Of a stretch of DNA of 64,000 nt, positions 54,878-64,000 are shown in pieces. Both the position numbers and the translations under genes were made by a program. Source of the DNA: Vulcanimicrobiota bacterium (GTDB lineage Bacteria > Vulcanimicrobiota > Vulcanimicrobiia > Vulcanimicrobiales > Vulcanimicrobiaceae); the NCBI GenBank assembly GCA_027452165.1, contig DAIDGX010000023.1:1-64000 (forward strand), written 5' to 3'. Within the stretch, counting starts at the first letter, position 1. Every line of letters begins with the position of its first letter. The notes beneath the pieces were generated by a model. The model searched no databases and was not told the origin of the DNA. It saw nothing but the letters and a program-made list of their open reading frames with translations.

Positions 54878-55591
54878 GTGGCTAAACACGTCCTCATCGC
54901 CGGCTTCGAACCGTTCGGCGGCGATAAAGTCAGTCCCAGCGAGATGGTTGCACGCAGCCTCGACGGTCGTATGATCTCGGGGCGATCTCTTGCCGTGCGC
55001 GTGATTCCGGTCGAAACGCGCAACGTGCGCGAACGATTCGAACAGGCGCTCGTGCAAGATAATCCCGATATCGTGATCATTCTCGCGCAGGCCGGTGGCC
55101 GTAGCGCGCTCGCGATGGAGCGGGTGGCCGTAAACGTCCTCGACTTCGAGATTCCCGACAACGTCGGCGTCATGCGCAAAGGCGATGTGATCACCCGCGG
55201 CGGTGCCGATGCACGCCTCTCGAACATTCCCTTCACGAGCGTGCTCGATAGCTGGCACGCCAACGGTGTCCCGGGATACGTCTCCAATTCGGCCGGTACG
55301 TACATCGGGAACCAGGCACTCTACGAAGTGCTTGGACTCACGGAGGCGGCCGCGCCCCCCGTGGTGGCCGGCCTCGTCCATGTGCCGTACCTTCCCGCGC
55401 AAGCGATCGCAGCGGGCTCGGAATCGAACCCTTCGATGTCCTTCGATCTCGTAAAAAAGGGCATCGAACTCATGATCGAAACACTCGTGCCGTGGGTGGA
55501 ACAGCGCACGCCCGACGCCAAAGCCGCGCCGGCGCGCGGTCAGGGCAAGTCGCTTTGGATTCCCCGCGGAGTGAAGGAAGCAGAACGCTGA
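54878..55591 (+). CDS. pyroglutamyl-peptidase I homologue lacking the catalytic cysteine
   Basis: A 237-residue C15-family protein from a GTG at 54878 (VAKHVLIAGFEPFGGDKVSP). The family aligns without gaps: the catalytic Glu is E81 (ALAMERVAVNVLDFEIPDN), and the catalytic His is H168 (AGLVHVPYLPAQ). The nucleophile position (Cys144 in Bacillus amyloliquefaciens numbering) is Gly144: YVSNSAGTYIGNQALY, codon GGG. Two base changes would be needed from any cysteine codon. The protein is therefore probably not a working cysteine peptidase. It may bind pyroglutamyl or other N-terminal groups, or serve as scaffold. The C-terminal tail after residue 205 is extended and Lys/Arg-rich. Confidence 0.85.
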   Translation: MAKHVLIAGFEPFGGDKVSPSEMVARSLDGRMISGRSLAVRVIPVETRNVRERFEQALVQDNPDIVIILAQAGGRSALAMERVAVNVLDFEIPDNVGVMRKGDVITRGGADARLSNIPFTSVLDSWHANGVPGYVSNSAGTYIGNQALYEVLGLTEAAAPPVVAGLVHVPYLPAQAIAAGSESNPSMSFDLVKKGIELMIETLVPWVEQRTPDAKAAPARGQGKSLWIPRGVKEAER

Positions 55592-57354
55592 GCGACCCTC
55601 GTATTTCGGCCATCCCCGACATTCACGGACACGCAAAAGGCGAGCATCGCCCCTTCGCCGAGGAACGCCCAATCGCGTACTCGGCGCGCATGCTCTTCTT
55701 GTGGTTCTACCACGCCTGCCGTCGCAATGCACCGCGGTTTCTGATGGTCTCCGACCACATCAACTACCTCACATTCGAGGATCCGGGCGCGGTGCACACC
55801 GTGCGCCGCGCGCTCAAACTCGCCCATGCGGGCGATCTCTATGGCGCGGCCGAAACGGCCGGCGTCGATGTTGCCCATGCCGGCATCGTCGGCGAGGGTC
55901 TCCGTAAGGGCATGCGCTTCTCGATCGGTGCCGAGGTCGATAACGATCCACGCGCCAGACCCGACGCTCAGAACATCGTCGATGCGATGCGCCCCGACGG
56001 CATCATCCGCTCGGTGCACTTCATTCCGATCGAACACCCCGAGAAGGGCGCCGATTGGGCATGGCCGTTTGACAATCCTGAGTTCGCGCACTTTTGGGAT
56101 CACGTCGGTACCGAGCGTGCGTGGGAGCTCTACATGGCGCGCCTGCTCGACGACTTGGAGAAGCTGCCCGGCCACATCGTCGGCCACTTCTACAAACCGG
56201 CGACGTTCGGGCATTGGCCCACCGACGCGACCCTCGAGGTCTACGAGGACCGGATGCTGCAGATCGCTCATGCACGCGGCATGGCGATCGAGGTAAACAC
56301 CCGCCCGTTCTACCGCGAGATCTCACCCGAGGAGCGCGAGAAGTACCTTACGGCACACAAACGCTTGCTGCGCAAAGCCAAGGCGCTTGGCGTAGGCGTT
56401 GCGGTCGGTTCCGACGCACACAGTCCGAAGGATCAAGGTGGAGCGTTCGACACGATACTCGCACTGCTCGACGAATGCGAGATCAACGAGCTGGTCTTCC
56501 CCGTGGCCGGGCGTTTGGCGCGGGTCGTGCTGCGCGCGACACGCGAGCACATCGAGAAGCATCAGGCCCGCGCGAGCGAACCCGCACAGCCCGGCAGCAG
56601 TATCAGCGGCCTGAGCCGTGCGGAGCTTGGTCTGCCCGAAGAGCCCGAACTCTCGGAACGCGAAGCACGCGCCGCCCGCACCACCGGCGGTCCCAAGCGA
56701 CGTGCCGCGAGCCCGGAACGCACGACGAAGAAACCAGCCGGAGCCGACGAGCCCAAGAGCTCATCGAAGCGCAGCGCCGAATCCGCCGCCTCCTCGAAAA
56801 AGGCGAAGGAGCGTAAGGGCGCCACAGCCGCCGCGCCCGATGTGCCGGAAGAGAAGCCGGCCAAGAAGCCCGCTGCCAAGCCTGCCAAGGCCACCGCCAA
56901 ACCCACCGCCAAACCCGCAGCCAAACCCGCAGCCAAACCGGCAGCGAAGCCGGCCGTGAAAGCGCCCGTGAAGGCCGCGGCCAAAAAGGCAGCTCCGGCC
57001 AAAAAGGCCGCCCCGGTCAAGACGGCGATGAAGCCCGCGGCAGCCAAGAAGACGGCGCACAAGGCCGCTACGAAGGCCGCTCCCGTCAAGAAAGCGACCT
57101 CCGCGAAGAAGGCGGCCCCAGCCAAGAAGGCTGTCACTGGCAAAAAGACGCCTCCGGCCAAGAAAGCGGCCCCAGCCAAGAAAACCGCCGCCGTCAAAGC
57201 GCCGGCGAAGGCCGTTGCCAAAGCCAAGAAGGCCCCGGCGAAAGCCGCTAAACCCGCACCCAAGAAACCTGCGGCAAAGAAGCCGGTGAAGGCCGCCGCA
57301 AAGCCGTCGAAAGGGACGACTTCCAAACAAAAATCGAGCGCGAAACGTCGCTAG
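55588..57354 (+). CDS. PHP-domain phosphoesterase with histone-H1-like Lys/Ala/Pro tail
   Basis: A 588-residue two-part protein. The N-terminal PHP domain (about 1-320) has the metal motifs PDIHGHAKGEH (HxH), MVSDHINYLTF, SIGAEVDND, RSVHFIPIEHPE, IEVNTRPFY and VGSDAHSPKDQ, as in histidinol-phosphatase and polymerase-type PHP phosphoesterases. From about residue 330 on, the chain turns into a basic tail of Lys, Ala and Pro repeats (motifs such as AAKKAAPAKKA), like histone H1 and AlgP-type proteins that bind DNA. A start is proposed at CTG 55588 overlapping the previous TGA, with AAGGAAG 7 bases upstream; a GTG at 55492 is the alternative. The tail should hold the enzyme on DNA or RNA; the substrate is unknown. 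Confidence 0.82.
   Translation: MSDPRISAIPDIHGHAKGEHRPFAEERPIAYSARMLFLWFYHACRRNAPRFLMVSDHINYLTFEDPGAVHTVRRALKLAHAGDLYGAAETAGVDVAHAGIVGEGLRKGMRFSIGAEVDNDPRARPDAQNIVDAMRPDGIIRSVHFIPIEHPEKGADWAWPFDNPEFAHFWDHVGTERAWELYMARLLDDLEKLPGHIVGHFYKPATFGHWPTDATLEVYEDRMLQIAHARGMAIEVNTRPFYREISPEEREKYLTAHKRLLRKAKALGVGVAVGSDAHSPKDQGGAFDTILALLDECEINELVFPVAGRLARVVLRATREHIEKHQARASEPAQPGSSISGLSRAELGLPEEPELSEREARAARTTGGPKRRAASPERTTKKPAGADEPKSSSKRSAESAASSKKAKERKGATAAAPDVPEEKPAKKPAAKPAKATAKPTAKPAAKPAAKPAAKPAVKAPVKAAAKKAAPAKKAAPVKTAMKPAAAKKTAHKAATKAAPVKKATSAKKAAPAKKAVTGKKTPPAKKAAPAKKTAAVKAPAKAVAKAKKAPAKAAKPAPKKPAAKKPVKAAAKPSKGTTSKQKSSAKRR
56800..57340 (+). repeat. degenerate tandem repeats encoding the Lys/Ala/Pro tail
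   Basis: Imperfect repeats of about 12-21 bases, built around AAGAAGGC(G/C)GCCCCGGCC-like units, encode AKKAAPAKKA-type peptides inside the PHP protein gene. They may vary in number between strains by slippage or recombination. The reading frame is kept throughout. Confidence 0.7.
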
Positions 57355-61682: not shown

Positions 61683-62459
61683 CTAGACCGTGAGCTCGGT
61701 GCCGTCGTCAGCGGCGGCACACGGGCCGCGATAGACCGTGCGCGCGGCATCTTCGAGTTCGCCCGGGGCGAACTCCGTGCCGTAGTGCGTCAACACGAGA
61801 CGGCGCGCGCCGGCCCGCTGCGCGAGCTCACCGGCCTCGACCGCCGAGAGATGCCCACGCACCGACCCTTCTTCTTGCGCAAGCCCAAGCGCGGCCTCGC
61901 ACAGAAACAGGTTGCAGCCGCGCGCGAGTTCGACGACCGCATCGCAGGGAGCCGTATCGCTCGAGTAGCAGACGCTCGCGCCGTCGCGCTCGACGCGGAT
62001 CGCATAGGCATCGACGTAGTGGATCGTTTTGGCAAACGAAAGCGTGAGGTTGCCGACGTACACTTCGCCCTTCGGATCGTATTCGCGAATCTCGAAGACC
62101 TCGTCCAGAAAATCGTGCGGACCTTCGGAGGCAAAGGTTGCGGCGAGGGCGCGTAATTGGGCCTCACCACCTGGTGGAAGCCAGAGCGGCATCGGCTCGT
62201 CGCGCAGCAGCGGCCCATACTTCAACCCATACCGCAACGGAATGAGGTCGATGAAGTGATCGGCGTGCATGTGGCTGATCACGATCGCGTCGAGAGCGGG
62301 ATAGTCCATCACCTCGCGGAGGTTCGCGAGCGCACCCGTGCCGATGTCCAAAAGAATGTTGGCTTCGCGGGTGCGGATGAGATGGCAACTGCACGCGCGA
62401 CCGGGCCGGGGAACCGAAGCGCTCGATCCCACGACCCGCACGCGCATCGTCGCCGCCAT
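61683..62459 (-). CDS. RNase-Z-like metallo-beta-lactamase-fold hydrolase
   Basis: A 258-residue MBL-fold enzyme of the RNase Z/arylsulfatase-like group from the ATG at 62459. The metal site reads VISHMHADHFIDLIPLRYGL (HxHxDH), with further ligands in VCYSSDTAPCDAVVE and RRLVLTHYGTEF. GHLSAVEAGELAQRAGA is the tRNase-like helix. It lacks the exosite of a true RNase Z, so phosphodiesterase or lactonase activity is equally likely. Start and stop codons overlap with the selenoprotein peroxiredoxin gene in front (TAATG), so the two are co-translated. Confidence 0.85.
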   Translation of the reverse strand: MAATMRVRVVGSSASVPRPGRACSCHLIRTREANILLDIGTGALANLREVMDYPALDAIVISHMHADHFIDLIPLRYGLKYGPLLRDEPMPLWLPPGGEAQLRALAATFASEGPHDFLDEVFEIREYDPKGEVYVGNLTLSFAKTIHYVDAYAIRVERDGASVCYSSDTAPCDAVVELARGCNLFLCEAALGLAQEEGSVRGHLSAVEAGELAQRAGARRLVLTHYGTEFAPGELEDAARTVYRGPCAAADDGTELTV

Positions 62460-62914
62460 TACGGTAGCGATGCGAGTACCTCCGCGGCGTGCCCATCGAC
62501 CGACACCTTCGGCCACACCTTCACGATCGTTCCTTGCGGATCGATCAGGAACGTCGCACGCGCAACGCCCTTGGTCATGCGGCCGTACATGTTCTTCTCG
62601 ACGATCACGCCGAATGCGTCACAGAGTTCCGACTCCGTATCCGCGAGCAGCATGAATGGGAATCCGAATTTTTCCTTGAACTTCCGGTGCGATTCGACCG
62701 AATCGCGGCTAACGCCCACGACTTTCGCCTTCTTCTTCTCGAACTCGGCGATCATGTCGCGAAACTGCGTGCCCTCGTTCGTTCAACCCGGGGTGTCGTC
62801 TTTTGGATAAAACCACAAGACGAGATGCCCGCCGAGTAGATCGTGCGTGGCCACGCGATGTCCCGCGTCGTCGAGAAGCGTTCGTGTGGGAAGCTTGTCT
62901 CCCTCGCCTAACAC
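62459..62914 (-). CDS. bcp: selenocysteine-containing Bcp-type peroxiredoxin (in-frame UGA at residue 44)
   Basis: Thiol/selenol peroxidase of the PrxQ/Bcp group, which reduces hydroperoxides. From a GTG at 62914 (AGGAGG 6 bases upstream) the frame encodes 151 residues if the TGA at 62783-62785 is read through. The canonical motif FYPKDDTPGCT reads FYPKDDTPG-TGA-T here, so the stop codon stands exactly at the peroxidatic cysteine. Both sides are good Bcp sequence (LVLWFYPKDDTPG before, then TNEGTQFRDMIAEF, VVGVSRDSVESHRKF and GVARATFLIDPQGT after). The resolving cysteine five residues on is Thr, so this is a one-Sec form. A small hairpin (CGC-AGTTTC-GCG, GU in its loop) follows 14 bases after the TGA, a weak SECIS-like element. 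Without SelB it would make a 43-residue fragment. Confidence 0.85.
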
Positions 62915-62916
62915 GC

Positions 62917-64000
62917 TTATCCTCCTGCGCTGGTATCGAATTGGTCCAACGGAACCATGAAGAGCAACCGGTCTCCCGGTCGCGCATCGCCCTGAAACTT
63001 GTGTACCGGAACGGCAACCCCTTTGGCGGTGCCATGCTCGCGCCACACGTAGAGTGGTACCCAGCGTACCTTGTATCCCGGACGCTCGGGCGGGGCCGGG
63101 GGCGGCGCGTTCTCGGCTCCCTGGAAACGCTCGGCGAGTTGGAAGGTACGCTCGAGCTCGGTGCCGCGGAAGATATCGAAGCGTCCGCGCGTACTCTCGA
63201 AACGCGCAAGGCCCGCGATCGTCGGGGCGGTCAATTCGGTTGTCGAGAACGACGCGATCCCGAAATGCCGTTTGATCGAGGCACCGAAGGCCAGGTCGTC
63301 GATCCGCAGCACGACGTGAAGATCGGCATTGACGCGTTCGCGCATGCGCGTACGCGCACCGAGCGCTACCTCGAGATTTGCCGTGTCGCTGTTGGTCACA
63401 CCCACGAGCGCTTTGGCATGTTCGGGAGAACAGTATGCGATCGTATCGTCGTTGGTCGCATCGCCCGTCAGGAGATCGATCTTGCGGTCGCGCGCGAGTT
63501 CCATCAGGATCGCGTCGGGACTCCGCTCGACGACCACGACGTCTTCGCCAAGTTCCCGTAGATAATCGATGACGAGCGACCCGACGTTGCCCGCGCCGCA
63601 GACGATGACATGCCCGCTACGCGTGACGCGGCGCAATCCGCGCAGACGACGGACCGTGGCCGCATTGAGAGCCGCCGTGATCGTAGCGGTGAAGACCGCG
63701 AAGATGCTCACCCCGGCGAGCATCGTGGCCATGCCCACGAGCAGCACGATCACCTCGTGCGGGTTCATCGCTTGGGTGGCGCAATTTCGACATGGCGTGA
63801 TGTCGCCGTACCCAACGGTCGTCATCGTCGTCAGGACGAAGTAGATCGCTTCGATCGGATTCAAGTGCAGCGCGAACGTAAAGAAAACCGAGAAACACGC
63901 AAAGAGCACGAAGCTCGCGATGAAGACGTTGCGAAGCATCGGTTCTACTCGGCGTAGCGAAACGCGCACGGCCCGAACCGTCTGACGCAGACGTTGCGCA
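62917..64000 (-). CDS. potassium channel with RCK (TrkA-N/TrkA-C) domain, 5' end uncertain
   Basis: Two-membrane-segment K+ channel subunit of the MthK/Kch type. From a GTG at 63969 it has 350 residues, but the frame stays open to the window edge (…QRLRQTVRAVRVSLRRVEPM), so the true start may lie outside. The pore is ALHLNPIEAIYFVLTTMTTV, with selectivity filter TVGYGD, then ITPCRNCATQAMNPH, and inner helix VIVLLVGMATMLAGVSIFAV. The RCK Rossmann motif is GHVIVCGAGNVGSLVIDYLR, with ligand-side VVVVERSPDAIL and LLTGDATNDDTIAYCSPEHA. A TrkA-C-like end follows. It likely gates by nucleotide or Ca2+. Its stop is 2 bases before the peroxiredoxin GTG, so channel, peroxiredoxin and MBL hydrolase form one operon. 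Confidence 0.87.
   Translation of the reverse strand, partial: AQRLRQTVRAVRVSLRRVEPMLRNVFIASFVLFACFSVFFTFALHLNPIEAIYFVLTTMTTVGYGDITPCRNCATQAMNPHEVIVLLVGMATMLAGVSIFAVFTATITAALNAATVRRLRGLRRVTRSGHVIVCGAGNVGSLVIDYLRELGEDVVVVERSPDAILMELARDRKIDLLTGDATNDDTIAYCSPEHAKALVGVTNSDTANLEVALGARTRMRERVNADLHVVLRIDDLAFGASIKRHFGIASFSTTELTAPTIAGLARFESTRGRFDIFRGTELERTFQLAERFQGAENAPPPAPPERPGYKVRWVPLYVWREHGTAKGVAVPVHKFQGDARPGDRLLFMVPLDQFDTSAGG

Follow-up and report, generated by a model that had tools for sequence, protein, structure and literature searches.

A minus-strand peroxiredoxin gene interrupted by a single TGA lies near one end of the 64,000-nucleotide stretch of Vulcanimicrobiota DNA analysed here (hereafter, the window). 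The frame runs from a GTG start at 62914 to a TAA stop ending at 62459 and comprises 151 codons, with the TGA at 62785-62783 as its sole internal stop. A sequence-only reading of this DNA had described this frame as open save for that codon and as preceded by a perfect ribosome-binding site. Translation bears out the former, and for the latter a Shine-Dalgarno motif, AGGAGG (62926-62921, minus strand), is found 6 nt upstream of the GTG. As the same reading had foreseen for gene callers, mechanical ORF finding splits the gene, in this case into ORFs of 87 and 98 aa. The gene starts directly behind an ORF at 62917-63969, and a downstream ORF (61683-62516) that by eye resembles metallo-beta-lactamase-fold hydrolases overlaps its end; several relatives have a similar reading downstream of their peroxiredoxin gene. 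Elsewhere in the window, a long ORF at 55492-57354 carries a Lys/Ala/Pro-rich, histone-H1-like C-terminal tail behind an upstream part that by eye looks like a PHP-type metal-dependent hydrolase domain.

When the TGA is translated as one residue, the resulting protein of 151 aa matches the Pfam family AhpC-TSA over its cut-off (E 1.7e-33), and its best NCBIfam match is PrxQ (NF053650, E 1.5e-45), which falls below the strict equivalog cut-off of that model. The active-site motif of the read-through protein is YPKDDTPGU, with the TGA at the C position of DDTPGCT (TPGCT), so the proposal that it exactly replaces the Cys codon of this motif holds and places it at the peroxidatic residue, 44. A Gly directly before the peroxidatic residue, as in P-x-x-x-T-x-G-C, serves as a criterion for PrxQ/Bcp proteins (PMC5302317) and is present here. 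With 20 orthologues as input, AlphaFold2 gives a model of mean pLDDT 95.9, whose top PDB matches in Foldseek are BCP/PrxQ structures with TM-scores of around 0.9. The active-site loop, the invariant Arg119 and, as modelled, the fold are those of PrxQ. The Cys-type PrxQ/Bcp structures 5enu (Burkholderia ambifaria) and 5iiz (Xanthomonas campestris) share the fold and active-site motif of the window's protein at 45-50% identity and TM-scores of about 0.9, but have a peroxidatic Cys where it would carry selenocysteine (Sec) and a Tyr in place of its Trp34.

The internal TGA is conserved far beyond chance. We compared orthologues from 60 related genomes: congeners and many other genera of the same family, order or class share the single TGA, while other orthologues have Cys. 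Across the Vulcanimicrobiota alignment, residue 44 is encoded by TGA in 27 orthologues and by a Cys codon in 21, with no third residue among the 48 (the alignment that the sequence-only reading had proposed as a check), and none of them contains a second internal stop or any other frame lesion. Of 149 genomes searched in the phylum, 33 contain the exact pattern x-x-Y-P-K-D-x-T-x-G-TGA-T and none its reversed control, in line with the earlier argument that random nonsense mutation would not strike this one codon. Among congeners, dN/dS amounts to 0.07-0.10 upstream of the TGA and 0.06-0.09 downstream, and purifying selection thus acts on both sides. A stop codon inside a conserved gene could in principle mean that a nonsense mutation has left a pseudogene, or that one codon was wrongly sequenced or assembled, but low dN/dS on both sides, intact frames in all orthologues and, decisively, the recurrence of this TGA in genomes assembled separately, at each rank from genus through family and order to class, refute this reading and leave it a negligible probability. 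Hardly more credible is a genuine stop with a shorter protein of 98 aa translated from an internal ATG at 62755. That ORF does exist, but its start codon (codon 54) is ATG in three congeners only and Ala, Leu, Arg or others elsewhere, its product would start beyond the active-site residue and miss the first strands, and the N-terminal part that it would omit is likewise under purifying selection.

The genome of the window, a 2.64-Mb draft in 27 contigs that is 95% complete, holds a complete selenocysteine machinery: selA, selB, selC and selD, by which the sequence-only reading had suggested its claim be checked, were all found. On contig 16, selB (319 bits) comes next after selA (497 bits); a tRNA-Sec whose anticodon is UCA scores 71.7 bits; and selD (387 bits) lies outside the window on the window's own contig (77235-78161), with an in-frame TGA of its own in CAG-U-AAK, the known Sec position of SelD. 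This selD (L010) shows a hairpin, GCGCA-AGUC-UUGCGC, 3' of its TGA; the selD genes of relatives have the Sec or the Cys form, and hairpins with AGUC or GGUC loops occur in many of them. Since TGA is the ordinary stop codon of 15 of the 43 likely genes in the window, global reassignment is ruled out and the TGA of the peroxiredoxin gene is a case of site-specific recoding. Other candidates for TGA read-through in the window looked like neighbouring genes that share a frame or like antisense frames, and by eye none was convincing. With DNA alone as evidence, the codon might also be read as an amino acid other than Sec, by suppression or global recoding, but we consider this very improbable given the ordinary use of TGA as a stop, the invariable Cys as the alternative residue in orthologues and the full sel machinery, including a tRNA of the tRNA-Sec family with the UCA anticodon.

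Of the 26 other Sec-form genomes, 24 contain selA, and the two in which it was not found (G034, 63% complete, and G052, in 370 contigs) speak against Sec decoding at face value but are probably explained by assembly gaps. Three Cys-form genomes (G014, G020 and G024) contain neither selA nor a selD over cut-off. Besides the Sec enzyme, the window's own genome has genes for a Cys-type PrxQ-like protein and for further members of AhpC-TSA (two additional Cys-type copies in it are L069 and L070), so that this enzyme is not its sole peroxiredoxin.

Taken as a group, the Sec genes carry a SECIS-like hairpin that is favoured beyond protein constraint. In 18 of them the stem GCGUCGC-AGUUUC-GCGACGC, with a loop beginning 16 nt past the UGA, retains 110 of 126 pairs compared to 85.5 expected from synonymous codon shuffling (z=5.2), while the same test on 20 Cys genes gives 87 of 140 pairs (z=2.4). 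The apical pairs are almost invariant in the Sec genes (53 of 54), and a third-base pair of the stem is A-U instead of G-C in two Sec genes and broken in 7 of the 20 Cys genes. In the window's own gene, 4 of the 7 stem pairs remain, among them the three apical ones, and only this 3-bp apical stem is clear (CGC-AGUUUC-GCG, 62769-62758, minus strand, the apical hairpin of the putative SECIS). Folded as a single sequence, its SECIS region is not better than shuffled sequences (fold z +0.7), and an Rfam scan of the region returned nothing real. This weakness counts against Sec decoding of the window's gene, for which a SECIS nevertheless appears likely, on a sequence signal that exists at the level of the group. 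A second Sec-PrxQ subfamily among relatives of the class (L060-L068) has a different, strong hairpin of the GUCAGC-GGUC-GCUGAC type about 29 nt past the UGA; GGUC also forms the loop in the classical E. coli SECIS element.

Overall, we are confident that the gene is best explained as encoding a Sec-containing PrxQ/Bcp peroxiredoxin with UGA 62785-62783 read as Sec, and the apparent premature stop almost certainly encodes Sec at the active site of the enzyme. The corresponding claim of the sequence-only reading is thus very probably right, supported by the sel genes, the congeners and the homologues. For the window's gene, we infer Sec insertion, SECIS function, peroxidase activity and a resolving step that would proceed as follows. 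SelB with tRNA-Sec(UCA) would decode the UGA, guided by the SECIS hairpin that closely follows it on the 3' side; U44, as a selenolate, would attack the O-O bond of the peroxide to form a selenenic acid; and an external thiol would reduce this intermediate in a 1-Sec cycle.

The last of these steps is suggested by the arrangement of Cys residues. A Cys at CP+5 or CP+36 defines the 2-Cys PrxQ subtype, and the window's protein has a resolving Cys at neither of these usual positions: U+5 is Thr49, and the position of Cys84 in Xanthomonas PrxQ (CP+36), the resolving residue of that enzyme, is Lys80. The Burkholderia structure 5enu likewise has no Cys at either position. With no Cys at residue 49 or 80, resolution by an external thiol through a 1-Sec mechanism is most likely, judged from sequence. 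Alternatively, Sec might be inserted into an atypical 2-residue peroxiredoxin with Cys98 (TGT, 62623-62621, minus strand) as a possible internal resolver, a residue that is common, present in at least 90% of 20 aligned orthologues, but not invariant. We think this unlikely: four Sec orthologues (L050, L051, L053 and L054) have Tyr, Phe, Val and Tyr at residue 98, respectively, which together with the lack of Cys at the usual positions favours the 1-Sec cycle, and Xanthomonas PrxQ has the matching Cys too, though it resolves through Cys84.

Residue 34, ten positions before the Sec, is Trp in the window's protein (TGG, 62815-62813, minus strand) and is fully associated with Sec in the phylum. 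In the phylum alignment all 27 Sec forms have Trp here and all 22 Cys forms Tyr or Phe, the pattern search left this site open (Tyr, Trp, Phe, Cys or Leu) and found TGG in 33 of 33 matches, and Trp34 occurs in 0 of 79 Cys homologues, almost all of which come from other phyla. A search of the Myxococcota, the phylum of a genome titled Archangium, gave 27 Sec-PrxQ matches with Phe (14), Trp (12) or Tyr (1) at this residue; Tyr is thus nearly absent from Sec forms. The association is complete within the Vulcanimicrobiota, but few sure independent events stand behind it. On the best tree, inferred with the columns of residues 34 and 44 omitted, there are five Sec/Cys changes, two of them forced by well-supported branches, and their number is uncertain since a topology that unites the Cys forms in a single clade could not be rejected (p-AU 0.139). 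An independent-pairs test of Trp34 against Sec cannot reach significance because only 2 pairs fall on well-supported branches. Tentatively, and as a joint proposal somewhat more apt to fail than to hold, we suggest that PrxQ couples its use of Sec to replacement of Tyr34 (by Trp, or by Phe in the Myxococcota) as a nearby adjustment to selenium chemistry and that some Cys forms of the class are true reversions from Sec. A 2006 survey, which listed 12 Sec-containing peroxiredoxins, three of them in Anaeromyxobacter dehalogenans, inferred five changes from Cys to Sec and zero from Sec to Cys, a direction not recorded there for peroxiredoxins (PMC1794560).

Sec-containing peroxiredoxins of COG1225 (Bcp) with a TxxU motif are an established selenoprotein family (PMC9312934, PMC13188914), in agreement with the earlier statement that such proteins are known from other bacteria. 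The window's protein belongs to the same family, would share Sec at the peroxidatic residue of T-x-x-U and bacterial SECIS-type recoding, and differs in the lack of a resolving Cys at U+5, in the link of Trp34 with Sec and in an apparently undescribed phylum. PrxU of the Eubacterium acidaminophilum type (NF040737) is also a selenocysteine peroxiredoxin but matches only distantly (38.8 bits, where the cut-off is 270). In a search of mostly open-access literature, we found no relevant paper that links Eremiobacterota, Vulcanimicrobiota or WPS-2 with selenocysteine or selenoproteins. The further claim that this gene adds a phylum (Vulcanimicrobiota, also WPS-2/Eremiobacterota) is accordingly plausible, and a known selenoprotein family is apparently extended to a phylum without an earlier report. 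Because standard gene callers cut the gene in two, it is easy to overlook that these bacteria depend on selenium. Within the phylum, Sec and Cys forms of the same enzyme occur in close relatives as a dense natural series, and these Sec/Cys pairs, together with the correlation of Tyr34 and Trp34, would permit a direct test of what else changes when selenium replaces sulfur in a peroxidase. More distant peroxiredoxin-like genes of relatives (for example G016:C10:52521-52898, G029:C7:52973-53341 and G038:C44:48482-48847; about 27-36% identity) contain a single TGA each, a sequence pattern that suggests at least one further family of Sec-containing peroxiredoxin-like proteins in the phylum.
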